Source: a virus
DNA: 22,818 nucleotides
Direction: 5' to 3' (one strand)
IMG/VR virus record: IMGVR_UViG_3300037882_003476
Location: 1 to 22,818 of that record
Shown: positions 6,045-19,684 of the stretch, one piece after another
Layout of the letters: each line of letters starts with the position of its first letter
How positions within the stretch are numbered: the first letter of the stretch is position 1
The notes under the pieces: generated by a model
Seen by the model: only the letters and a program-made list of their open reading frames with translations
What the model was told of the DNA's origin: nothing
Databases searched by the model: none
Made by a program: the position numbers and the translations under genes

Positions 6045-7466
6045 TTAGTTTACCGAAGAGAGGTGTTTCTCAATGGCTTGGAGGGTGCTCAGCATCCCAG
6101 CTGCTTCAGGCACCAGCTTGTTTTCCTTCGCCTGCTGCAACTTGGCATTCGTGGCGTTTTGTCGCTGGAATGCCTGACCAAGGGGGATGGATCTGTTTCC
6201 TAGATAGTCGCGGGCTTGCAGAGACTGCAGCCGATCCAAGCCGGGGAACTTGCGCCCATCCAGCCCTTCAAAGGTACTACTAGAGACGCCCCCTCTGATT
6301 TTCCTGCGTCCACCTGCTCTATCTGCCAGCTTGTCTTCAGCGAGCTGCTCTCGTTTCGCAAACTCAGCGGCCGCTGCCGGGGTAGCTCCTGTTGTGCGTG
6401 AGATTTCCGCCGCTCGATCACGCAGATCAAACTGCTTTTGCAGCTTGTCCGCAGCTGTGTTTTTGCCAGCTGCTCGCAGCTCTTTGACCTGCAAGTTTTC
6501 CTCAATTGAGCGGGTGGACTTGAGTTGAGACTCTTGCTTTTTCTGCACCTCTCTTTGGGCTGCTGTCGTGTTGGCATTTGGGTTCCCTAACGAAAAGCGG
6601 GCTTGCGCCTCCTTAATCAGTATTTCCTGCGTATCGGACTTCAGAGAGCTGTCCTTGATGCTGGCAATCTCGCGCTCCAAATCACGCGCACGCTCAATCG
6701 CTGCTAGCTTGTCTTTGGCGAACGCAGCAGCTGCTTTGTCTTCTCCAGCTGCCTCTTCCTTCAGCTTCGCAATTTCAGTGAGTGCCTTTGCCTCCGCGAT
6801 GGCATTCTTGTTCAGCTTAGTTTCAGCTCTGGCCAATCGATCTTTGCTCAGCTCTCTCTCCACTTTCTTTTCATCGCTTAGCGGTGCGCCTGTGAAGGGG
6901 GCCAGGAAGTCCCCGCCGATCTCTCCAATCTTCCCGAAGAAGGTGTTACTCTTGTCCTGCTGAGCGATGACGGTCTTCTGTGCTGCTATGACTTTATCCA
7001 AGGTGCTTACCACTGCACCAATGCCTGCTGAACCTGCCAGTGATGCCGTAGCCTTCTCCGCTGCCTCTACCTCTTGAGCCATCTCAGCAAAGGCTTCATT
7101 TCCTGCTTGGCCCATGGACAAGAGAGCACCTCCAATGGCAATGACTCCACCGATGATGGCTCCCTTGGTCCCGAATGCGCCAGCCAGCTGCGAGCCCTGC
7201 TGGGTGAACACAGTGAGCGCCGAGGTTCCTCCCTGGAGCTGCACGGCGATGTCTTGCAGCTGTGCTGAAGCTCCACCTAAGCCCCGCTGAAAAGCCCCCC
7301 CTTTTCCAACACGATCAAGGCCAGCCGCAGCCCCAGAGAGCTTGCGTCCTGATGCCTCGACTTGTGTGCCAAACTGTGTAGTGCGTTGCGAGAGGCGGTT
7401 CAGCCCCTGCTCTACCTGCACTCCGTCGAAGCCAAAGACTAGCGTCGCTGCGTTGTTGTTCGCCAT
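6045..7466 (-). CDS. Tail tape measure protein (short)
   Basis: 473 residues. The N-terminal third has the segment LQDIAVQLQGGTSALTVF (70-87) followed by QQGSQLAGAFG (89-99), a signature of lambda-type tail length proteins. It leads into a Gly/Ile/Ala hydrophobic stretch (102-117) that could enter the membrane during DNA ejection. Residues about 128-370 are Lys/Glu/Ala-rich and predicted to form long coiled coils, the part that sets tail length. At roughly 1.5 angstrom per residue this implies a tail well under 100 nm, short for a siphovirus. It directly follows the G/T frameshift chaperone genes, as in lambda. No peptidase or lysozyme domain is present. Confidence 0.9.
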   Translation of the reverse strand: MANNNAATLVFGFDGVQVEQGLNRLSQRTTQFGTQVEASGRKLSGAAAGLDRVGKGGAFQRGLGGASAQLQDIAVQLQGGTSALTVFTQQGSQLAGAFGTKGAIIGGVIAIGGALLSMGQAGNEAFAEMAQEVEAAEKATASLAGSAGIGAVVSTLDKVIAAQKTVIAQQDKSNTFFGKIGEIGGDFLAPFTGAPLSDEKKVERELSKDRLARAETKLNKNAIAEAKALTEIAKLKEEAAGEDKAAAAFAKDKLAAIERARDLEREIASIKDSSLKSDTQEILIKEAQARFSLGNPNANTTAAQREVQKKQESQLKSTRSIEENLQVKELRAAGKNTAADKLQKQFDLRDRAAEISRTTGATPAAAAEFAKREQLAEDKLADRAGGRRKIRGGVSSSTFEGLDGRKFPGLDRLQSLQARDYLGNRSIPLGQAFQRQNATNAKLQQAKENKLVPEAAGMLSTLQAIEKHLSSVN

Positions 7467-7472
7467 GCGCCG

Positions 7473-7495
7473 AGACCGGAGTCAATCTCCGGTCT
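7473..7495 (-). terminator. 9-bp perfect hairpin upstream of the tape measure gene
   Basis: AGACCGGAG, a 5-nt loop and CTCCGGTCT form a perfect 9-bp stem in the 37-nt spacer before the tape measure ATG (7466). It ends 6 nt from that start codon on the minus strand, and no T-run follows, so it is not a classical intrinsic terminator. It may be a processing site, a stability element or a structure limiting initiation. Confidence 0.5.
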
Positions 7496-7503
7496 GCCCT
7501 TGT

Positions 7504-7725
7504 CTACTGCCCTATCCATTTTCTGAGTTGCTGCCACCACCTGCCCACACTGCTCTGCTCTAAGCGTGGCCACACCATAGGCTGGCCATCGTAAATGCGG
7601 CGGGCGTGAATGAGCGCGTAGCCTTCTGCGAGTGAGATGCGCCAGTAAATTTGGGACTTGGTCAGGGAGGGAACTGCCGCTGCCAGTAGCACGGCGTAGA
7701 CTGCTACTGGTAGCGGCTCGGCTAG
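7504..7725 (-). CDS. Tail assembly chaperone, T extension made by -1 frameshift
   Basis: This 73-residue segment has no good start of its own. Its frame is -1 to the upstream chaperone and is entered at GGGAAAC (7731-7725), after which translation continues at CTA (7725-7723). The product is a G-T fusion of about 225 residues, as in lambda gpG-T. The segment has a hydrophobic helix (PVAVYAVLLAAAVPSL) and then a basic, Trp-rich end (RWWQQLRKWIGQ). In lambda, the T part recruits the tail tube protein while G binds the tape measure protein. Upstream of the slip site this frame also stays open, but the peptide there is shadow-like (His/Gly/Arg-rich, no structure). The position immediately before the tape measure gene supports the call. 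Confidence 0.85.
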   Translation of the reverse strand, partial: LAEPLPVAVYAVLLAAAVPSLTKSQIYWRISLAEGYALIHARRIYDGQPMVWPRLEQSSVGRWWQQLRKWIGQ

Positions 7726-7731
7726 TTTCCC
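7677..7731 (-). promoter_or_regulatory. Programmed -1 ribosomal frameshift signal (slippery site plus stem-loop)
   Basis: The minus strand reads G GGA AAC (7731-7725) in the upstream reading frame, immediately followed by the TAG stop (7724-7722). An 8-nt spacer leads to a large stem-loop at 7716-7677: CCGCT, one mismatch, CCAGTAGCA, a 10-nt loop, TGCTACTGG, one mismatch, AGCGG (9 + 5 bp). This is the X-XXY-YYZ heptamer, spacer and stimulator arrangement; lambda uses GGGAAAG at the same place. Confidence 0.93.
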
Positions 7732-8180
7732 TCCCGTGTTCCTCCAGCTCGACTGGTCCTCTCCACAGCTCGTGTTGATTCTGCGTCCGCGATGATCCGA
7801 CTCGCTAACTGGATGGCCTCTATCGCTACTTCCTTCCCGATGTTCTTGCGCCCCCATTCCTGGGTGTGCTTCAGCAGTCGCAGCGGGTAGGGCAGCAGCG
7901 GCGCTAGCTCTTCTTCCGTCATGCTGCACAGGCAGATGATCTTCTCTGCGTCCCAGAGCACGAACTGTGGATTCAGCGTGCGCAGCTCAGATGGCATGGG
8001 CGCGTCCAGTGCTTGCAGCCTCTCGAAGAGGCGGTCCCGCATGATGCTGTAGGGCTCCAGTGTGGCACCCTTCCAGCTGTATCCGGCAGTGAACGCAGCG
8101 TCTGCGGCTGCTGTGGGAGATGTTGGCGCTGGGCTGTCGTCGAGTGCGACGATCTTTGGCTCTATGGGGTCATCTGTCAT
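7722..8180 (-). CDS. Tail assembly chaperone, G-like
   Basis: 152 residues from ATG at 8180. A TTG at 8201 that overlaps the upstream stop would add seven residues. The N-terminal 35 residues are acidic and Pro/Ala-rich; residues 40-140 are largely helical (YSIMRDRLFERLQALD, EEELAPLLPYPLRLL). The C-terminal residues (TSRAGGTREGN) lead to the slippery heptamer and TAG. Family size, position between the tube candidate and the tape measure protein, and the frameshift cassette identify it. G-like chaperones coat the tape measure protein in the cytoplasm before tube polymerisation and are not part of the finished tail. Confidence 0.85.
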   Translation of the reverse strand: MTDDPIEPKIVALDDSPAPTSPTAAADAAFTAGYSWKGATLEPYSIMRDRLFERLQALDAPMPSELRTLNPQFVLWDAEKIICLCSMTEEELAPLLPYPLRLLKHTQEWGRKNIGKEVAIEAIQLASRIIADAESTRAVERTSRAGGTREGN

Positions 8181-8197
8181 GCAGACACTTCTCTGCG

Positions 8198-9004
8198 TCA
8201 AAGGCGGAAGTGTCGTTGCACGCGATCCATGACTGTGCCTGTGGCGTCACTGGATACCATTGCGCACAATGCCGAGCCGGGGTTGGGCTGGATGTGGATG
8301 ATGCGGGTTCCGTGGTCGATCCTGTGCCGCAGGTAGAGGTATCGCCATGCGCAGATGATGGCGTGGCACATGGGGTGCTCTGGCTCGGTCTGCTGGATGG
8401 CTAGCTGGCGGGTGCCTAGCTCATTCAGTGGCTCGGCTCTCTGCACCAGTGCAGCGGGCTGCTGGTGTGCCTGCTGCGGCGTGGCGTAGTCTCTCAATGG
8501 CTTGTGCAGGCCGCTGATGAACCAGCTGCCTGATGCCTGGTCAACGAGTGGGAATCCACAGACGGTGAGGGCTGCTGCGAGGGCTCTGTCTTGGGTCTGG
8601 ATGCGGCCTACTGCGGGCTCGCGGTAGAGGCTATCTTCCGTGTCCTCCTCTAGCTCGTAGTGTGTGGGCCAGGGGGCTGCTCCACTGTGGCTGCGCGGCT
8701 GGAGACGCAGGGCACGCAGCTTCCCCTCTGCCCAGTGGCGCAGCTGCACCACGGCACGCACTGCTGCCATGCCGATGACGAGGGCGGGCTCTGTCTGCAC
8801 GGTGAGTGCTCTGACCTGCGCGGCGATGTGGGGACCACGGAGGTCATGCACTACGCTGACTTTGCCTGTGGTGTGGCCACGGATGACTTGCTCTGTGACC
8901 TCTGTGCGGACGGTGTTCCCAGGCTGCGCGGAGAGCACAGCGGCAGCGAGTGTGTCTGTGGTGACCCAGCTCTGCTGGCCTGCTATGACTCTCCGCTCAA
9001 GCAT
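8198..9004 (-). CDS. Unknown protein inside the tail module
   Basis: 268 residues, ATG at 9004, 9 nt after the stop of the tail tube candidate. I do not recognise it. It is a soluble mixed alpha/beta protein with no signal peptide or membrane helix. Visible features: Val/Thr-rich strands in residues 10-60, an acidic patch ELEEDTEDS (about 116-124), a helix-strand segment IQTQDRALAAALTVCGFPL (134-152), and a C-terminal region with many His and Arg. No Walker, HTH or nuclease motif stands out. Most lambda-like phages have nothing between the tube and the chaperone, so it is an accessory or lineage-specific tail gene. Confidence 0.65.
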   Translation of the reverse strand: MLERRVIAGQQSWVTTDTLAAAVLSAQPGNTVRTEVTEQVIRGHTTGKVSVVHDLRGPHIAAQVRALTVQTEPALVIGMAAVRAVVQLRHWAEGKLRALRLQPRSHSGAAPWPTHYELEEDTEDSLYREPAVGRIQTQDRALAAALTVCGFPLVDQASGSWFISGLHKPLRDYATPQQAHQQPAALVQRAEPLNELGTRQLAIQQTEPEHPMCHAIICAWRYLYLRHRIDHGTRIIHIQPNPGSALCAMVSSDATGTVMDRVQRHFRL

Positions 9005-9013
9005 GGCGCGGGC

Positions 9014-9436
9014 TTAGTTCGTGGCGCTGCTGAAGTCTGCCAGCTCAGGGTAGAAGGTGCAGGGCACCGTCATCTCTGGGTCTGCGTCTTCGTCCAGTGT
9101 GAGGCTCACGTCCTTCACTACGACCTTGCTTCCGCTGGCACTGGTGAAGCCCATGAGGGATTCGTTGTTGGTGCCGTTGAAATTGATCAAGGTCACAGCG
9201 ATGCCGGGGTGAGCGACAGCGAGGCCTTCGTAGGCTCCGAGTGATGTCGGGATGGGCTGGCCTTTCAGCTCGATGTCCAGCTGCGGTGTGCGGCTGGTGT
9301 GCGCTGCGACCTGACGGTCTTTGTTCAGCGTTTCTTTGTGGTTCCTCTTCGCAGAGAATTGGATGTTGGTGACGACGAGTCCCGTCTCGTTGATGGGCTC
9401 TTTACGTGCGGCTCCGTGGTGAATGCGGTCAGTCAT
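9014..9436 (-). CDS. Major tail tube protein candidate
   Basis: 140 residues, ATG start. Predominantly beta with the segment ELKGQPIPTSL (55-65) and a C-terminal EMTVPCTFYPEL (120-131), fitting a single-domain tube fold where strands are followed by a closing beta-arm. Size is at the small end for siphovirus tube proteins (140-250). It follows a tail-terminator candidate and precedes the chaperone genes by one gene, the expected slot. No other gene in the region fits better, but sequence alone is not decisive. Confidence 0.55.
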   Translation of the reverse strand: MTDRIHHGAARKEPINETGLVVTNIQFSAKRNHKETLNKDRQVAAHTSRTPQLDIELKGQPIPTSLGAYEGLAVAHPGIAVTLINFNGTNNESLMGFTSASGSKVVVKDVSLTLDEDADPEMTVPCTFYPELADFSSATN

Positions 9437-10340: not shown

Positions 10341-11057
10341 TCAAAGGGCTACCTTCTGTAACGTCTTCTCGAGTGCCTTGGGCAGTCTGCGGCGGAGCTT
10401 ACCTTCGCGCAGCTTGGCCACCCTCTCCAGGATGCGCGGCATGCCTGCGCGGTTGGCGTAGCGCACGTTGTTGATGGCGGTTATGTAGTAGGAGCTGCGG
10501 GTTTGATCGGTCTTCACGTTGCCTTGGCTGGCGCTGCGTTTGGCGATCCACACGGGCACTGAGGCTTCCACTTCTTTTGCTGCGGCGAGCCAGCCAGCGG
10601 CGAGTCTGCCCACTCCAGACTGTCTGCGCTTTGTCATGCGCTTCAGCTTCTTTTCGTCTGCGTAGTAGGCCTGCTTCCGGCCTCGACTCACGCGGTGTCT
10701 GCCAGCTCCTGCTTTCCGCTTGAGTCGGGCTTGGTAGAGCCCTTCCACATCGACATGCAGCTCCTTTGTTTTCACCTTCACGGGCTTGGCTAATTTCTTC
10801 CCGAACACCTTCGTGATGGTCCGATAACCTTTAATCTGCACCGGGGTGAAAACGGCCAACACGTCTGAGGTGATGGTGCCTTCGCCTCTCCGTTTGTCGC
10901 TCAGTCGTGTGCCGGGCGGCGTGAGCGCGATGGCATCCTTGATGCCGTTGCGCGTCTCGGTCCGCACCTGCTCCCGCATGAACTGAGCGAAGGCCGCAGG
11001 GTAGGCCTGCAGCTTTCTGATGAGCTCTGCGGTGTTGGCGGTGACGACGACTCTCAT
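10341..11057 (-). CDS. Tail-completion / HK97-gp10-like protein
   Basis: 238 residues, ATG directly abutting the previous stop. The N terminus MRVVVTANTAELIRKLQAYP (1-20), followed by a helix and a TPPGTRLSDKRRGEGT loop (46-61), matches the gp10/gpZ pattern of connector proteins: a helix over residues 10-45, a TP.GTG-L-like turn, then strands. The middle (85-160) is an unusually Lys/Arg-rich insertion. The C-terminal third (175-238) is helical and basic. Relatives are usually 120-190 residues, so this one is enlarged. Its role would be at the head-tail interface, joining the tail terminator. Confidence 0.65.
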   Translation of the reverse strand: MRVVVTANTAELIRKLQAYPAAFAQFMREQVRTETRNGIKDAIALTPPGTRLSDKRRGEGTITSDVLAVFTPVQIKGYRTITKVFGKKLAKPVKVKTKELHVDVEGLYQARLKRKAGAGRHRVSRGRKQAYYADEKKLKRMTKRRQSGVGRLAAGWLAAAKEVEASVPVWIAKRSASQGNVKTDQTRSSYYITAINNVRYANRAGMPRILERVAKLREGKLRRRLPKALEKTLQKVAL

Positions 11058-11382: not shown

Positions 11383-11622
11383 CTAGGCGAGCTGCTCCTG
11401 CAAGTAGCTGCTGACGTCTCCGAAGGTGACCCACTTCTCCGTGATGTCGTCCTCTACAGCGAGGCCGAATTCTTCTTCAATGGCCATGACTAGCTCGACT
11501 TGATCCAGGCTGTCCATGCCTAGCTTTTCGAGGGTCTGCTCCGGGTAGCAGTCGTCCCTGTCGGTGCCGAGTTGCTCTTCGAGGATCTTGGTGAGTTTAC
11601 GGTGGATGTCTTCTTCGCTCAT
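11383..11622 (-). CDS. Acyl carrier protein
   Basis: 79 residues from the ATG at 11622 (a GTG further upstream at 11655 would lie inside a hairpin and is less likely). The protein is acidic and helical, with the 4'-phosphopantetheine motif LGMDSLDQVELVMAIEEEFG, Ser38 being the attachment site, and the length and helix layout of AcpP. The DSLD-VELVMA-EEEF part matches bacterial fatty-acid ACPs closely, so a host AcpS-type transferase could probably load it. Role known for the family: carries acyl chains on a thioester for fatty acid and lipid synthesis, and binds many partner enzymes. Its location between capsid and connector genes, rather than in a metabolic cluster, is odd. Stop TAG; the start overlaps the stop of a short leader ORF. 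Confidence 0.95.
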   Translation of the reverse strand: MSEEDIHRKLTKILEEQLGTDRDDCYPEQTLEKLGMDSLDQVELVMAIEEEFGLAVEDDITEKWVTFGDVSSYLQEQLA

Positions 11623-11696
11623 GCACCGAAGACTCGGAGTAAAAAGCGAACGCACGGCAGACCGAGGTCCACCGTGCGCTGCTTCCCTTTTTTCAT
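11619..11696 (-). CDS. Possible 25-residue leader ORF upstream of the acyl carrier gene
   Basis: The ATG at 11696-11694 opens a 25-codon frame (MKKGKQRTVDLGLPCVRFLL, then five more residues). It ends in TGA at 11621-11619, overlapping the ATG of the acyl carrier gene by 3 nt (ATGA). It spans the 12-bp hairpin at 11651-11678, so ribosomes translating it would melt that structure. The basic, hydrophobic peptide has no recognised family. It may act mainly by coupling or attenuation. Confidence 0.4.
   Translation of the reverse strand: MKKGKQRTVDLGLPCVRFLLRVFGA
11641..11678 (-). terminator. 12-bp hairpin followed by a T-run, attenuator-like
   Basis: On the minus strand 11678-11651 reads CGCACGGTGGAC, loop CTCG, GTCTGCCGTGCG: 12 bp counting two G-T pairs. 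Five bases later comes TTTTT (11645-11641). The layout resembles a weak intrinsic terminator or attenuator directly before the acyl carrier gene and inside the short leader ORF. Confidence 0.55.
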
Positions 11697-11743: not shown

Positions 11744-11998
11744 CTAGTCTTCTGCGGGTGCGGTGATGTTCATGGCGTAGCGCGAATTCAGGGCTTTCGC
11801 GGCGATCTGCACCAGCACGTCAGCGAGCTGAGAGTTCGTGATGTTGATGGCATCATAGCGCACTCGCTCTCCACTGAGCTGCACTTGCTCCTCTGCTTGA
11901 ATGCTGAGGGTGACGCGAGAGTCTCCAAGGTCTGCCACGATGTGGCGAGCAACACTGGTTCCATCTGGGTGGCGGGTTTCGGTAAGGGTGAAGGCCAT
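11744..11998 (-). CDS. Small unknown protein upstream of the acyl carrier gene
   Basis: 84 residues, ATG start, flanked on both sides by spacers with hairpins. Sequence pattern: strands VARHIVADL, SRVTLSIQAEEQVQLSG, then a helix SQLADVLVQIAAKALN and a short final strand (YAMNITAP). No family recognised. It could be a small capsid decoration or connector protein, or a partner of the acyl carrier protein, since the two are flanked by regulatory-looking hairpins. The MAFTL start matches that of the connector candidate at 11058-11378. Confidence 0.6.
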   Translation of the reverse strand: MAFTLTETRHPDGTSVARHIVADLGDSRVTLSIQAEEQVQLSGERVRYDAINITNSQLADVLVQIAAKALNSRYAMNITAPAED

Positions 11999-12030
11999 GC
12001 TGTGCGCGTGCTGTTAAGCTGTACGCAGTG

Positions 12031-12060
12031 ACCCCGCTGGCACACAACTACCAGCGGGGT
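12031..12060 (-). terminator. 10-bp perfect hairpin between the Ala-rich gene and the 84-residue gene
   Basis: ACCCCGCTGG, a 10-nt loop and CCAGCGGGGT form a perfect 10-bp stem in the 106-nt spacer 11999-12104. No T-run follows on either strand. It is strong enough to act as a factor-dependent terminator, a processing site or an mRNA-protecting 3' structure. Confidence 0.6.
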
Positions 12061-12104
12061 CTAGCAACACGACAGGCAGCGCAGCCTGAAGCGAAAGGGG
12101 TTGG

Positions 12105-12512: not shown

Positions 12513-12531
12513 GGAGGTGGTGGGAAGTAGT

Positions 12532-12576
12532 GAGTGGGGGAGGCTTCAGCAGCGGCCTGATTGCTCTCCCCCACTC
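12532..12576 (-). terminator. 11-bp perfect hairpin after the major capsid gene
   Basis: GAGTGGGGGAG (12532-12542) pairs perfectly with CTCCCCCACTC (12566-12576) around a 23-nt loop, 19 nt downstream of the capsid stop. No T-run follows. Its position behind the gene needed in the largest amount suggests a 3'-end or processing element that raises capsid mRNA. The loop contains GAGGCTTCAGCAGCGGC-type sequence also found in the next gene's repeats. Confidence 0.6.
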
Positions 12577-12595
12577 GGTTCTCATGTGGGGTAGT

Positions 12596-13942
12596 TTATG
12601 CGGTGCGGAGGATCTGGCCGCTGGGCTCCATGGCGAGCTGCTCTACGTCAGCAATGGCACCTGCGGTAGCTCCGTAGAGCACTGCGAAGGTGATGTAGCT
12701 GTCCATGGTGCCGGGCTCGAACCACTTGTAGCAAATCATGCTGAGGCCAGTGTCTGGGTCTGTGACGACCTCACCTGCTGCGGTCACAGGGATGCCAAGT
12801 CCCTGTGCGATGTCGATGCCATCCGAGGGCAGCGCGGTCTTGATAGCAATGGCCTCACGAGTGCCGAAGAAGCCGGAGATGTTCTCCTTCTTGGCCATGG
12901 TGCCAGCGGTGTAGGCAGTGGTGACATCCACTGCGCTGCCGCCCCGTGTGGCGGAGACCTTCAGCGTGGTGGTGCTGGGCACATCCGACACGAAGTAGAA
13001 GGTGCTGCCACCTGCGGTGAGGCCTGCGCCACCTGTGAGCGCGGAGAACTGCACGCGGTCACCAACGAGCAGCCCGTGAGCAGCGCTGGTGGTGATCAGG
13101 TCTGCGGTGGAGATGGAGCTGATGGTGAGGTCAGCACCATTGCCTGTCAGCATGTCTGGATACTCCACGATCTCCTGGAATCCAGAGAGCCCACGGAACA
13201 CGGCATGAGGGTCTGCGTCGTTGCGTTGGCTGGCGTTGTCGTAGCGGTTCGTGATGCGGCTATCTCCCTCCAGTGCCTCTGCTACGTCCGAGTTGATGAG
13301 ACCAAAACGAGGGCCGCCCACACCACGCTTGTTCATGGCTTTACGAATGGCATTCAGCGCGTCCTTGTTGCTATTCGCGAGGCTGTAGGTGCTGGCATTG
13401 CCGAAGGCTTTGCTGCCGATCTTACCGAGCACGTGATCATTCACGGCTTTGCCCAGCACGCTGGCGCTGTCCTGGAAGTGGCCTTCCAAATCGGTGATGC
13501 TGTCACCCAGAGATGCGAGGTGAGAAACGTTCAGCGTTACGTGCAGGTGCTGACTCATGGTGAAGGGCACGTCGACTAGCAGGTCGCGGCCTTGCTGAGC
13601 ACCTGCCTTGTAGCCACCGTTGTTGGCATCGTATTGGCCAGTGACGGGGCGCTTCCTAATTTTGCCGATGACTTGCTGGTCCTTCTTCAGCCGCTCCGTG
13701 GTGAAGTCATGAGCGAAGAAGCTGAGTGCAGGGCAGCGCACAAACAATGCGCGGATGGTCTGCTGAAGCAGCACCACCGGCGTCAGTGTGGGCACGAGGA
13801 GCGCGCCCTGCTGAGCAGGCTGCTGCATGAGTGCGGCAGCACCTACGAAGAGGCAGGCAGCGGCGAGCACGGGACTGGTGACTGCCAGCACTGCGGTGAG
13901 TGCGAAGAGCAGGGAGGCGAGGATGATGTGGGCGAGTTTCAT
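12596..13942 (-). CDS. Major capsid protein (HK97-fold, P22-coat-like)
   Basis: 448 residues, ATG at 13942 (ATG at residue 39 is the alternative). Core features of P22-coat-like proteins: TTERLKKDQQVIGKIRKRP (81-99), a helical spine (140-205), a strand RFGLINSDVAEAL (212-224), GLSGFQEIVEYPDML (251-265), then ISGFFGTREAIAIKTALP (355-371) and a C-terminal beta-closing region with CYKWFEPGTMDSYITFAVLYGA. A beta domain of about 85 residues (268-352, AHGLLVGDRVQFSALTGG) is inserted in the A-domain region, where P22 has its I-domain. Residues 1-38 form one or two membrane-like hydrophobic stretches, very unusual for a coat protein. They would have to be removed or not translated. It lies after protease and scaffold genes. 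Confidence 0.85.
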   Translation of the reverse strand: MKLAHIILASLLFALTAVLAVTSPVLAAACLFVGAAALMQQPAQQGALLVPTLTPVVLLQQTIRALFVRCPALSFFAHDFTTERLKKDQQVIGKIRKRPVTGQYDANNGGYKAGAQQGRDLLVDVPFTMSQHLHVTLNVSHLASLGDSITDLEGHFQDSASVLGKAVNDHVLGKIGSKAFGNASTYSLANSNKDALNAIRKAMNKRGVGGPRFGLINSDVAEALEGDSRITNRYDNASQRNDADPHAVFRGLSGFQEIVEYPDMLTGNGADLTISSISTADLITTSAAHGLLVGDRVQFSALTGGAGLTAGGSTFYFVSDVPSTTTLKVSATRGGSAVDVTTAYTAGTMAKKENISGFFGTREAIAIKTALPSDGIDIAQGLGIPVTAAGEVVTDPDTGLSMICYKWFEPGTMDSYITFAVLYGATAGAIADVEQLAMEPSGQILRTA

Positions 13943-14498: not shown

Positions 14499-15383
14499 CT
14501 AGCCGATGAGGTCCCCCACGTAGTCATCCAGCGTGGCGGTGGTGAGTGCGTCCACCAGCTTCCGCTCATGGCCTGTGCCGCAGTCCATCCACTGACCTTC
14601 CATGGTGGACTGAGCCACTTCTCTGTGTGCGGTGACTGCCTGCCTGAACTCAGCGTAACAGCGGTCCACACTGCCTTGCAGGTGAGCGCGCTCCTGCTCT
14701 GTGATGGGCCGCCAATCTGCTCCCATGGTCTTCATCTCTCCTGCCTTCAGCACCTGCATGTTCAGCCCTTCGTCTGTGTACCAGCGCGAGGCATCCAGCA
14801 GGGCGATGTAGACGCCGATGCTGCCGACGATGGCGGACTCTCCCGCAGCGATGAGGTCTGTCTGCGAGGCGAGGTAGTAGGCAGCGGAGCAGCACATACC
14901 GCTGATGTAAGTGTGGACCTCCTTCTCCTTCGTCAGCTGCGCGATGCGCTGCGCGGTCTCCTTCACTCCCACAGTGCTGCCGCCTGGGGAATTCATGTCT
15001 AGCACGATGGTGTCCACTCGCTTGTCCCCCGCTGCGAGTGAGAGCGCTGAGTCCACGTCATCCAAGTCTACAGCACCGTAGCACTGCATCTCCAGCATGG
15101 TCAGTGACTTGTCGATCGCGCCATGCAGCTTGATCACTGCGACATTCCCATGGCGGGTGTAGATCATCTCCTGCCGGACGAGCGGCTCGGTGGCTTTCAT
15201 CATGCGCTCATACTCCAGCCAGTCCGAGGAGACACGGCCAGCGCTGCCGATGGCCTCCTGATGCGGTGAGACGTCTCCTCTCATGCGAGCGAGCAGTGCT
15301 GTCTCGAATGCCTGGCGTGCAGGCGTGTGGAGCATGAGTGGGCTGGCGAAGAGCTTGGCGAAAAGGTGGGGGTATTGTCTCAT
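14499..15383 (-). CDS. S49-family head maturation protease
   Basis: 294 residues; the ATG overlaps the portal stop (ATGA). Motifs: VAVIKLHGAI (81-90), VLDMNSPGG (127-135), the catalytic serine in GMCCSAAYYLAS at Ser166, IVGSIGVY (185-192), and the base lysine Lys218 in GEMKTMGADWRPIT, corresponding to the SppA/S49 Lys that precedes the W/F-RP-IT-like segment. The Ser-Lys dyad is intact. Lambda gpC and relatives cleave scaffold and portal during head maturation, and this one probably acts on the adjacent scaffold and possibly on the capsid N terminus. The length fits a stand-alone protease without a fused C-terminal scaffold, which is encoded separately next door. Confidence 0.9.
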   Translation of the reverse strand: MRQYPHLFAKLFASPLMLHTPARQAFETALLARMRGDVSPHQEAIGSAGRVSSDWLEYERMMKATEPLVRQEMIYTRHGNVAVIKLHGAIDKSLTMLEMQCYGAVDLDDVDSALSLAAGDKRVDTIVLDMNSPGGSTVGVKETAQRIAQLTKEKEVHTYISGMCCSAAYYLASQTDLIAAGESAIVGSIGVYIALLDASRWYTDEGLNMQVLKAGEMKTMGADWRPITEQERAHLQGSVDRCYAEFRQAVTAHREVAQSTMEGQWMDCGTGHERKLVDALTTATLDDYVGDLIG

Positions 15384-16969
15384 GCTTCGGAGGATGCTTC
15401 AGGGTCTGTGGAGTCTTCTGGGTCTGGCTGTGCCTTGTCTTTTTTGGCTGGGGGCGCGTCTGTGGGACCGGGCTGGAATTGCTGGCCTGCCTTGCCGGGG
15501 AATACCTCTGCATACTGCAGCTCCACACCGTAAAGCTCCTTCGCGGAGAGGCACTCCCGCTTGGCGAAGGCGACCTCTGCCACACGCTGGCGGATGCGCT
15601 TTTTCCAGAAGACGCCCTGTGCTCCCCACTCGTCTAGCCAAGTCGTTAGGCCGCAGTCCAACTGAATGACGGAGAGGTTGCCTTCGCGCCCTCTGTCGAT
15701 GGTCATGTCTGCCTGGCCGATCCACTCTACTTGCCTCCACCAGTTGGCTGGGCCTGCGGGCAGTCTGCCTGCCTTGATCTCCTTGGCGATGTGGTAGCCG
15801 AAGTAGCGGTTGCAGCGCTTTGCCATGCGATACTGTCGATTGGTCACCCACCTCTTGATCTCCGCCATGATGTAACGGATGCCGGGTCCGGTGACTCCGC
15901 TGATGTCGCATAGTGCCTCGAAGGGCAGGTCCACCGCGAAGCAGCAATCCTGCAAAACTGCACGCTCGAACTCGCGGTTGTTTTGGCTGGGGCGGTCATC
16001 TGTCAGCACCTTCGCGGTGACACCCTGGGGGAGCAGTGGCACCTGCGCACCGGAGCCTACTAGCTCCCAATTCACGTTCGTGGTGCTGTTGTCCGGCATA
16101 CGCGCCGGAGTCTGTAGCATGGGGCCAAGCATCCCTCCTCCGGGTGCGGTGAGTGTGGCTGTGGCGGACTGCTCCAGCACGGTGCCCACTCTTGCATTGG
16201 CCTTGATGCCGCTCTTCCAAAAGCCTCGCGTCTCGACGATGTCGATCATGTTCACCACTGCTGCGGCGAGGATGCTGACTGCGCGGATCATACCGCGTGC
16301 ATCCAAGCTGCCGATGTAGATGGCATCACGACTCTCGATGTCGGTGTAAGAGTCGCTGATGCCGTTGCGCACACAGTAGCCGATGTGCTTGTCGAACCGA
16401 TCCAGATGAATGCCATCACGCCAGGTGTCTCCGGTGTGTCTGCCATTCACGATCTGGTGGCCTTCGTAGTACGCGCAGCGCGCACCTCCGCTGGAGGTCT
16501 CTGTGAGCACCTGTAGGAGGTCGCCATCCCGGAAGGCGGTGAGGTTATCCATGGGCTGGCTCTCGAAGAAATCAAACTTGCCTGCGCGGTCGTAAATCTC
16601 TGCGCTGCCTGCGCGGGCCATGAAGTTCTCAAAGGCCATCTCATTCCAGCTTTCGTTGCGCGTATTCGGCTGCGGAGTCACGAAGCCGATGAGCTTGGAG
16701 GTGCCGTGGACGAGGCGACGAGCGAAGCCGAAATGGTTGTAGAGCCACTGCACACGACGAGCGATCTCGGTGCGTGTGAGGGTGTCCGACCAGTTTCGGG
16801 GATTGGTGTCCCTCCAGTAGAGGTAGCCACGATTCGGGCTGGAGTTGGCCGCTTGGTAATTGCTGAAGCCGGGCACCAAGAGGAATGCGCTGGACTGCTG
16901 CTGCGCGGGTGCTGCGTCAATAATTCTTGACGGTGCTGCGGTGCGTTGGGCTTTGGTTTTGCGGCTCAT
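15380..16969 (-). CDS. Portal protein (lambda gpB-type)
   Basis: 529 residues; the ATG overlaps the stop of the upstream gene by one base. Long helical N terminus with RRVQWLYNHFGFARRLVHG (46-64), a RDGDLLQVLTETSSGG region (about 146-161), a wing region, and the clip/stem segment DLPFEALCDISGVTGPGIRY with the conserved SGVT. The C-terminal third is Pro/Gly-rich and then disordered. The pattern matches lambda portal proteins and the length (lambda gpB is 533) is almost the same. It lies between the gpW-position gene and the head protease. The dodecameric portal forms the DNA entry vertex. Confidence 0.9.
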   Translation of the reverse strand: MSRKTKAQRTAAPSRIIDAAPAQQQSSAFLLVPGFSNYQAANSSPNRGYLYWRDTNPRNWSDTLTRTEIARRVQWLYNHFGFARRLVHGTSKLIGFVTPQPNTRNESWNEMAFENFMARAGSAEIYDRAGKFDFFESQPMDNLTAFRDGDLLQVLTETSSGGARCAYYEGHQIVNGRHTGDTWRDGIHLDRFDKHIGYCVRNGISDSYTDIESRDAIYIGSLDARGMIRAVSILAAAVVNMIDIVETRGFWKSGIKANARVGTVLEQSATATLTAPGGGMLGPMLQTPARMPDNSTTNVNWELVGSGAQVPLLPQGVTAKVLTDDRPSQNNREFERAVLQDCCFAVDLPFEALCDISGVTGPGIRYIMAEIKRWVTNRQYRMAKRCNRYFGYHIAKEIKAGRLPAGPANWWRQVEWIGQADMTIDRGREGNLSVIQLDCGLTTWLDEWGAQGVFWKKRIRQRVAEVAFAKRECLSAKELYGVELQYAEVFPGKAGQQFQPGPTDAPPAKKDKAQPDPEDSTDPEASSEA

Positions 16970-17677: not shown

Positions 17678-19684
17678 TCAATGTTTCAGGGCTGCGGCTT
17701 CTTTCTCTGCTCTCTCTCTCTCGGCTCGTTGCTGGGCTTCTCTGAGGGCGAGAGCGGGCGCGAGAACATACCAGCCGACGTCATTCATTTTCATGGCGTC
17801 GCCAAAATCGTTCTTGGTTTTCGGCTCTGCCCACAGCCACTGCCTACGCTTTTGGTTGTAGCCGAATTTCTCCGCGCACAGCTCTGAGACGAAGCCGGGA
17901 TCCTGCTGAATCTCCACAGGGAAATGCACGCGTGCCACTCCGAGTGGGCGAGCTACTCCAGCTTTCTCTGCATCTCGCAGCTCCTTGAATCTGCCGAAGG
18001 TTTTGTTGTAGAGCTGATCCTTGAAGTTGTCGTCACTGAAGCGGTAGCACCACAGTGGCCACGCATTGTGCGTGGTGTTAGGCGGGTCTCCTGAACGAGG
18101 CCAGACGAGGTCTCGTGCGCTGCGCATCCGCATTCCCTCCTGTCCCCAAACGGACACGAAGCGGTAGATGGGCAGGCTGCGTTCATCCATGCCCATGTAG
18201 GTGCTGACGACGAAGTCTCTCACGTCCTTCTGGATGTAGCCTTCATCGATGATGCCCTTGTAGACGACGGGGTCCACACGCTGCTCCAGTGGGGTGTCCT
18301 CTGGCCAGTGCAGCACTCTCACGGGCCTGTCTGCTTCCTCCATGAGTGCGGCGAAGCTGAGGCTCTCTCCCCAGTCGATGACGTAGCTGTCACCATTGGT
18401 CATGTAGGCTCGCTTCACCCATTTCCTTGCGACCTGCTGCACGTCACATGCCATCAGTACGATGGCTGGTGGCACGGGGCACTCTCCTCTTCGGTAGGGG
18501 GATACCATCTGGTAGATGTCGTTGTCCTGCACCTCGATGCTCTTCTGCTTCCAGCCTCTGGCAAGTCTGCCACGCATGAAGGTCTTGAGCTTGTCTTCCT
18601 CTGGGTCTTCCACGGCCTCTAGCCACTCTGTGACGAGCACGGGCCAGGTGGCTGTGGGGAAGGTGCTCATGAGGTCATCTAGCTGCAGGCTGAAGATGCC
18701 GGGCACTGCCTTGATGGGGTCTGCCTCCGTGCGGGTGGAGAGCAGTGTGCGGCGGCGGATCATCCATGCCTTCCAGCACTCATGAATGTGGCCACCACTG
18801 GTGCCGAGTGGTGCTGGCAGCCGCTCCCTCTCTGTGAGTGGCTGGCTCTGCGCGTAGGCTCCGTAGCTGTGCGTGTGGCAGTCTGCGTTCACGCAGCGCA
18901 GGTGGATGCCTGTGCGCATGGCGTTGTAGTCCCATGCTCCGAGCAGATCCTTGCAATGGGAATACATGATGCGCTCCCACTCCACGGTCTGCACGGTGCC
19001 GCAGTGCGGGCAGGGAAAGTGGTGCTGGTGCTTGCTGCCCTTCAGCCATTCCTGCGTGATGTTGTCCTCATAGTTCTCCGGTTTGCTGAGCTCGATGCTG
19101 ATGAAGTTGCTCTGCTTCTTTCCACGCTCTCTGCCCACTGCGGTGGCGGCTTTGTTACGATAGGTGTCGGTCTCATCGAAGATGGCGAGGCCGACACTTT
19201 TGTTCGCCAGCTCCCCGAGTGAGTTGCTACCGCAGAGGTAGCCGACGAGCCCCTTGAAGGAGAGGGTGAGGTTCGCGAGATCGTCCTCGTTCTCACTGAT
19301 GGAACCTTGTACCGCCTTGCATGCGCGGAGCATGGGCTTGAGTCGCTCCTTGCTGATCCTTCGCATCTCATCGCGCACGTCGATGACGTACAGGAAGTTG
19401 CGGCAGACGTAGCGGACGTAGTAGCAAATGTAGATGAGCAGCACCAGGGTGACTCCGGTTTGGCTGCTCTTCTTCACGATGACGCGGTTGTATTTCCGGC
19501 TCTGAATGATCTCCCACAGGTCCGTGGGCAGTGGGTTCAAGTCGGGGTCATAGGGGCCGGGGAAGTCGCCACTCTCCTTCGTGGAGAGCTTGATGTTTTC
19601 CTTGGCCCAGTCTCTGAGGCTCTGTGTGGGACGAGGCGCGAAGACCTCTCGCATGAGTGCTGCCACTCGTTGTCTCAGAGTCAT
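17678..19684 (-). CDS. terL: Terminase large subunit, GpA type
   Basis: 668 residues; the ATG overlaps the small-terminase stop (ATGA) and is one of the few starts with a GGAGG-type motif in front (spacing 4). Domains: N-terminal ATPase with a Walker A-like KSSQTGVT (72-79, Lys replaced by Val as in lambda, which has a nonstandard loop), Walker B LAIFDETD (166-173), and a zinc-knuckle set PCPHC (224-228) with Cys264 and Cys269. The nuclease region contains MACDVQ (411-416) and NDFGDAMKM (625-633) with the acidic metal ligands. Size is close to lambda gpA (641). It packages and cuts concatemeric DNA, which implies cos-type ends, though the end type cannot be proved here. Confidence 0.95.
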   Translation of the reverse strand: MTLRQRVAALMREVFAPRPTQSLRDWAKENIKLSTKESGDFPGPYDPDLNPLPTDLWEIIQSRKYNRVIVKKSSQTGVTLVLLIYICYYVRYVCRNFLYVIDVRDEMRRISKERLKPMLRACKAVQGSISENEDDLANLTLSFKGLVGYLCGSNSLGELANKSVGLAIFDETDTYRNKAATAVGRERGKKQSNFISIELSKPENYEDNITQEWLKGSKHQHHFPCPHCGTVQTVEWERIMYSHCKDLLGAWDYNAMRTGIHLRCVNADCHTHSYGAYAQSQPLTERERLPAPLGTSGGHIHECWKAWMIRRRTLLSTRTEADPIKAVPGIFSLQLDDLMSTFPTATWPVLVTEWLEAVEDPEEDKLKTFMRGRLARGWKQKSIEVQDNDIYQMVSPYRRGECPVPPAIVLMACDVQQVARKWVKRAYMTNGDSYVIDWGESLSFAALMEEADRPVRVLHWPEDTPLEQRVDPVVYKGIIDEGYIQKDVRDFVVSTYMGMDERSLPIYRFVSVWGQEGMRMRSARDLVWPRSGDPPNTTHNAWPLWCYRFSDDNFKDQLYNKTFGRFKELRDAEKAGVARPLGVARVHFPVEIQQDPGFVSELCAEKFGYNQKRRQWLWAEPKTKNDFGDAMKMNDVGWYVLAPALALREAQQRAERERAEKEAAALKH

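Follow-up and report, generated by a model that had tools for sequence, protein, structure and literature searches.

Acyl carrier proteins (ACPs) are known from phages, in which acpP has been classed among the auxiliary metabolic genes (PMC8224337) and the function of the protein remains unclear (PMC5463345). In eight annotated ACP-bearing phages, the gene is surrounded by replication, nucleotide, methylase or tRNA genes or by genes of unknown function. The phage ACPs filed in this way (PHROG 5934; Bajun, pf16, GAP32, phiXF1, Erythrobacter R6L and Rhodobacteraceae prophages) are, like the one described here, stand-alone ACPs with a DSL motif; none of those examined, however, lies between capsid and tail genes. 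No prior report of an ACP inside a head-tail cluster was found in the literature searched, whose coverage is incomplete; ACPs in phages are thus known, and their location within a head-tail gene cluster is apparently new.

Phages close in gene order to the stretch of DNA analyzed here (the window, an entire IMG/VR record of 22,818 bases) include Verrucomicrobia phage P8625 and Akkermansia phage Moulinsart. Both share with the window the order terminase, portal, protease, capsid and head-tail genes, whereas neither carries the ACP gene or its neighbor g84 between the capsid and head-completion genes.

The ACP gene and its genomic setting

Every recognised gene of the window is on the minus strand. 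In the direction of transcription the order is ParB-N6 methylase, PLD-like ORF, terminase, portal, S49 protease, scaffold-like ORF, major capsid, g12, g84, ACP, g106, g238, and then tail genes with the tape measure and tail-fibre-like proteins. The main features are as follows:

17678..19684, minus strand: terminase large subunit (GpA), PF05876 4.1e-29, PF20454 9.1e-17
15380..16969, minus strand: portal protein, lambda family, PF05136 5.5e-13, phrog_21
14499..15383, minus strand: S49 head maturation protease, PF01343 5.5e-24, phrog_53 3.7e-60
12596..13942, minus strand: major capsid protein, phrog_283 E=1.7e-8, homologues in L081 and L083-L088
12105..12512, minus strand: g12, Ala-rich small protein 3' of the capsid gene, assigned by position in L081-L088 and by hhalign (93% probability)
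11744..11998, minus strand: g84, 84-aa ORFan beside the ACP gene, second gene of the putative insertion
11383..11622, minus strand: ACP gene, 79 aa, predicted phosphopantetheine site D37-S38-L39
11058..11378, minus strand: g106, head-completion-type protein, function suggested by position, homologues in about 24 related loci
10341..11057, minus strand: g238, minor tail or head-tail junction protein, adjoining g106 as in relatives
6045..7466, minus strand: tape measure protein, phrog_1538 4.8e-12

The ACP gene starts with an ATG at 11622 and stops at 11385-11383, with an in-frame GTG at 11655 as an alternative start. It lies between the capsid gene (13942-12596) and the head-tail and tail genes (11378 down to the tape measure gene at 7466-6045). 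The original prediction had placed it between capsid and connector genes; its location in the late structural operon stood, but two small genes, g12 and g84, separate it from the capsid gene. The late expression also suggested for it is kept as a prediction that follows naturally from the operon.

The product of the gene is, by family profile and predicted fold, a type II, stand-alone ACP, with a carrier function predicted from sequence and model. It matched PF00550 (PP-binding) with an E value of 8.9e-13 and 48.7 bits, above the family cut-off of 20.8, and PHROG 5934 (acyl carrier protein) with 8.9e-17; its top match in the PDB was the Aquifex ACP 2ehs (1.2e-15). The AlphaFold2 model, obtained from an input alignment of six rows, showed four helices with a pLDDT of 87, and aligned to solved ACPs with TM values of 0.8 to 0.9, in agreement with the four-helix ACP fold. 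These family and fold matches are far above chance. Residues D37, S38, L39 and E49 were invariant in an alignment of 28 phage and host ACPs; Ser38 is by sequence the phosphopantetheine serine, and its modification is predicted. Thus, the earlier reading of the sequence as a full-length ACP whose DSL serine is intact was confirmed by the PF00550 match, the predicted fold and D37-S38-L39, and conservation of the serine, proposed as a check, was observed in every aligned phage ACP.

The protein resembles AcpP (PF00550; Verrucomicrobiota copies, Aquifex 2ehs and E. coli) in its 79 aa, four-helix fold, DSL serine and near-identical helix II. It differs in being phage-encoded, in an identity of at most ∼49 to 51%, in being one residue shorter before the DSL, and in missing the NCBIfam ACP equivalog cut-offs, narrowly with the subfamily model (2.7e-19; 68.8 bits versus 71) and also with TIGR00517 (61.4 versus 70.45 bits). 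Neither these cut-offs nor its surroundings indicated a housekeeping AcpP, the gene being flanked by phage head and tail genes in place of a fab neighborhood.

The best matches of the ACP were the Verrucomicrobiota AcpP copies, 49 to 51% identical, and the nearest annotated phage ACP was that of Bajun (45.9%). The shorter loop before the DSL is common to the window, Bajun, phiXF1, pf16, RHph_X2_30 and X2_24. A tree of 58 ACPs (80 columns) placed the window ACP on a long branch, with the surrounding branching without resolution. Given those identities and that tree, capture from a present-day verrucomicrobial host was rejected as its origin, and a recent capture from the host is unlikely. Helix II (DSLDQVELVMAIEEEF) was identical at 15 of 16 positions to that of a verrucomicrobial AcpP (L121), whereas identity over the whole protein was about 48%.

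Despite its strong divergence from host AcpP, the protein has kept its frame, predicted fold and recognition helix intact and thus appears to be maintained. This argues against a neutral or recent passenger devoid of function, as does the recurrence of similar genes described below. A single occurrence in the family and a patchy distribution elsewhere would fit such a passenger, which we regard as improbable.

An assembly chimera, in which a bacterial acpP fragment became fused into a phage contig, is hardly credible. The record is metagenome-derived and no second copy of the genome was found, but the ACP gene has the same strand, GC, GC3 and codon use as its neighbors, and its stop is only 4 bases from the g106 start. 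Furthermore, no fabF or fabG adjoins it, its identity to any host ACP seen is ∼49 to 51% at most, and the phage genes on either side are uninterrupted and keep the order seen in relatives. For its part, the tape measure gene (6045-7466) has GC3 and a codon-use score clearly below those of most of the late operon.

The capsid to head-completion junction in related phages

Relatives were found with the portal as the anchor, aligned first with Moulinsart and subsequently with L014 and L015. Pattern scans that started from a single protein (capsid, terminase or portal) revealed no close relative. The window portal was 30.6% identical to that of Moulinsart (4e-42), also matched that of P8625, and was 49% identical to that of a Verrucomicrobiia MAG contig. 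Its nearest IMG/VR relatives were 42 to 53% identical, and 66 of the 387 genomes from the same order (Verrucomicrobiota) contained related lambda-family portals. Because portal relatives occur in phages and genomes of Verrucomicrobiota, the host probably belongs to this phylum. Portals of this broad type are common in Verrucomicrobiota genomes, so that such prophages seem widespread there.

In relatives spanning the junction, the capsid gene was followed by a g12-like and then a g106-like gene, the latter two separated by about 0 to 160 bp versus 726 bp in the window. The gap measured 130 bp in L084, 159 bp in L085, 123 bp in L087, 77 bp in L089 and 60 bp in P8625, while in L082 the two genes overlapped. 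Profile comparison supported the kinship of g12 to its counterpart with 93% probability. The 726 bp of the window hold g84 and the ACP gene. The 82-aa gp12 of P8625, which occupies the corresponding place, was considered as an ACP and rejected by its sequence.

A profile search of 133 related loci (1.67 Mb, some of them short or overlapping) detected an ACP only in the window and in L151, the latter a biased count as L151 had been chosen because ACP and portal matches fell on one contig. None of about 24 other loci with a g106 homologue contained an ACP. L151 is a contig of a Verrucomicrobiota genome (G219), thus from the same phylum, in which about 2 kb separate an ACP (PF00550, 1.9e-10) from a lambda-family portal; unlike in the window, the ACP is on the other side of the portal among different neighbors, and it was probably acquired independently. 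The same contig (L151:16043-16432 and 6758-9433), with its ACP near the portal, also carries a DNA ligase gene and an ORF of 891 aa that weakly matches LRAT (acyltransferase-like).

Given the junction-spanning relatives without ACP and their short g12/g106 gap, g84 and the ACP gene are, by gene order, a two-gene insertion, and the ACP a moron-like cargo gene and not a family-wide structural gene. As expected of a moron, it is an extra gene missing from relatives at the same place. A conserved virion or assembly gene would be present in relatives with the head-tail module, and there it was absent. Retention of the gene in this slot by related phages, which the original prediction had proposed to look for, was seen in none of them (133 loci, the L151 ACP being elsewhere), and its suggestion of a structural or chaperone-like use in the virion is disfavored. 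Because the slot is empty in related phages, the ACP is unlikely to be a virion component or assembly chaperone conserved in this phage family.

Three hairpins border the genes of this region:

11639..11688, minus strand: hairpin plus T run in the g84/ACP gap, terminator-like, 14 pairs
12019..12068, minus strand: hairpin in the g12/g84 gap, 11-bp perfect arms
12529..12578, minus strand: hairpin in the capsid gene/g12 gap, 11-bp perfect arms

When the transcribed strand of the whole 22.8-kb record was scanned in 50-nt windows, these were the three most stable hairpins (−30.9 to −30.7 kcal/mol versus a mean of −12.0, standard deviation 4.3). They sit one each directly before g12, g84 and the ACP gene, in the capsid to head-completion stretch. 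A hairpin like that at 12019..12068 was found in or beside the same junction in L081, L083, L084 and L085, and L087 also has a strong hairpin 3' of the capsid gene. Since hairpins of similar strength flank the same genes in these five relatives, at least one of the window hairpins probably predates the insertion. The insertion gave no sigma-70 promoter match, and terminators in the window were no more numerous than in shuffles, the hairpin before the ACP gene being terminator-like nonetheless; thus, the insertion may not be an autonomous moron.

ACPs at the gp14/gp15 junction of marine T4-like contigs

A scan of IMG/VR yielded 262 ACP loci; the 80 retained carried 55 distinct ACPs. Records of Listeria, Staphylococcus and human-fecal phages matching the window ACP were not used, as they are unannotated and may be bacterial contigs. 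The neighbors in the kept loci were often replication or ribonucleotide reductase genes, and in some loci virion genes. In L264 a few genes separate the ACP from the large subunit of a ribonucleotide reductase, and in L262 from an ORF of like size; L264 also contains a spanin-like ORF and an ORF matching the ribosomal protein S6 glutaminyl transferase family.

L249 and its kin carry the ACP exactly between the T4 neck protein gp14 (PF11649, 8.3e-37) and the tail sheath stabilizer gp15 (phrog_227, 1.4e-82). The terminase comes next after gp15, and the ACP ORF ends a few bases from both neighbors. A gp14-anchored scan covered 83 loci, 80 of them newly fetched, with L249 and L276 already known as ACP carriers. 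The arrangement gp14-ACP-gp15, with a gp14/gp15 gap of 214 to 216 bp, was present in 10 of the 83 (8 of the 80 newly fetched):

gp14-ACP-gp15 loci: L249, L276, L307, L318, L327, L335, L336, L337, L350, L354

The other 73 of the 83 had no ACP at the junction, and in most of them gp14 and gp15 overlap; in the isolate Melnitz-3, gp14 adjoins gp15. The nine distinct junction ACPs all had an intact DSL. On the gp14 tree, five changes of ACP presence were needed, at least four of them forced by supported branches, so that by this tree the ACP has been gained or lost at the junction several times. Seven other loci (L369-L374 and L376; e.g., L370:4927-5172) have a different small ORF (MAIWYLN...) in the gap, which marks the junction as a landing site for small genes. 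Such patchy gain and loss, together with other small genes at the same site, is moron-like behavior. Two further T4-like contigs (L257:5861-6339 and L292:1419-1897) have two tandem ACP genes upstream of gp13-gp14-gp15.

The marine T4-like arrangement resembles that of the window in the location of the ACP within the head-tail joining cluster, the intact DSL, the tight spacing and the patchiness among relatives. It differs in lineage, which is unrelated (T4-like neck), in neighbors, and in consisting of a single gene of ∼71 aa without g84. The presence of an ACP in a head-tail cluster is therefore recurrent across unrelated phages and not unique to the window. A possible tie between ACPs and the head-tail module is unexpectedly strengthened by these unrelated phages, although the pattern is patchy there (10 of 83).

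A role as structural protein or chaperone, either in the virion or when head and tail are joined, would fit an ACP gene beside head-completion genes and its similar place in T4-like phages, but relatives that have this head-tail gene set all lack an ACP, as do 73 of the 83 T4-like loci. Furthermore, virion proteomics of Sajous1, an ACP-bearing Vi01-like phage, the only such data found for a phage with an ACP, gave one ACP spectrum versus 924 for the capsid protein (PMC10892097), although in Vi01-like phages the gene lies outside the neck cluster. We consider this role very unlikely; the evidence favors a late-expressed cargo gene rather than a structural protein.

Candidate roles of the ACP

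AcpS and the enzymes of fatty acid synthesis (FAS) recognise the acidic helix II of ACP. The identity of 15 of 16 helix II residues in a protein otherwise so diverged is as expected if the face contacting AcpS and FAS is under selection, although it is moderate evidence, helix II being the most conserved part of all ACPs. The reading we prefer, to which we assign a probability of about one half, is that of a working carrier, charged by the host, made late and predicted to act on host lipid or acyl metabolism. A moron-type gene would have entered the late structural operon with g84, between g12 and g106, and would be cotranscribed late with the head-tail genes. Host AcpS would place phosphopantetheine on Ser38, and host FAS enzymes would load acyl chains by way of the preserved acidic helix II. 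While particles assemble and the cell lyses, the extra holo-ACP might then alter the pool of acyl groups that the host has for membrane, lipid A or other products fed by ACP.

Host enzymes would be needed because profile searches recognised no partner enzyme for the ACP within the window. The 22.8-kb fragment contains no second lipid gene, and the missing part of the genome may hold further auxiliary genes. Phages, Verrucomicrobiota genomes and profile libraries yielded no match to the neighboring g84; without relatives and with a low-confidence AlphaFold2 model (pLDDT 52), this gene was discarded as a clue to function. A purely metabolic role would need an added reason for the repeated head-tail placement, such as late timing or a permissive junction.

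That placement would be explained if holo-ACP were an acyl donor for an acyltransferase (HlyC-like logic) whose substrate is a phage protein, be it a virion, lysis or secreted one. The repeated presence of ACPs beside neck and head-completion genes in unrelated phages and the invariable retention of the DSL in phage ACPs are consistent with such a donor, as is L151, where an ACP near the portal accompanies a large ORF with a weak LRAT-type match. No acyltransferase, however, was recognised within the window, and relatives assemble without any ACP, which leaves this a minor possibility.

Host ACP also binds SpoT, MukB and IscS/LYR-type proteins. The phage ACP might therefore be an adaptor that, late in infection, captures one of the host's ACP partners to block or redirect it, acyl transfer being beside the point. 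Such an adaptor would agree with the predicted ACP fold and the preserved acidic helix II, and ACP complexes with MukBEF and cysteine desulfurase were among the structural matches of the model. Nevertheless, the serine, needless for a pure binder, is invariant in phage ACPs, and no candidate partner was identified; we hold this role to be unlikely.

With the working carrier as the preferred reading, a broader and doubtful proposal is that at least two unrelated phage lineages independently placed an ACP at their head-tail genes because the charged protein (acyl or phosphopantetheine) serves late virion formation or release, for example by acylating a neck, tail or lysis protein. If this were true, there would be a lipid-carrier step in phage assembly hitherto undescribed. 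The repeated, independent presence of ACPs in head-tail clusters, always with the modification serine kept, points to a late function. It also provides a small set of genomes for testing which step of lipid or protein acylation phages need at assembly, and identifies two landing sites for cargo genes, the gp14/gp15 junction and the capsid/head-completion junction.
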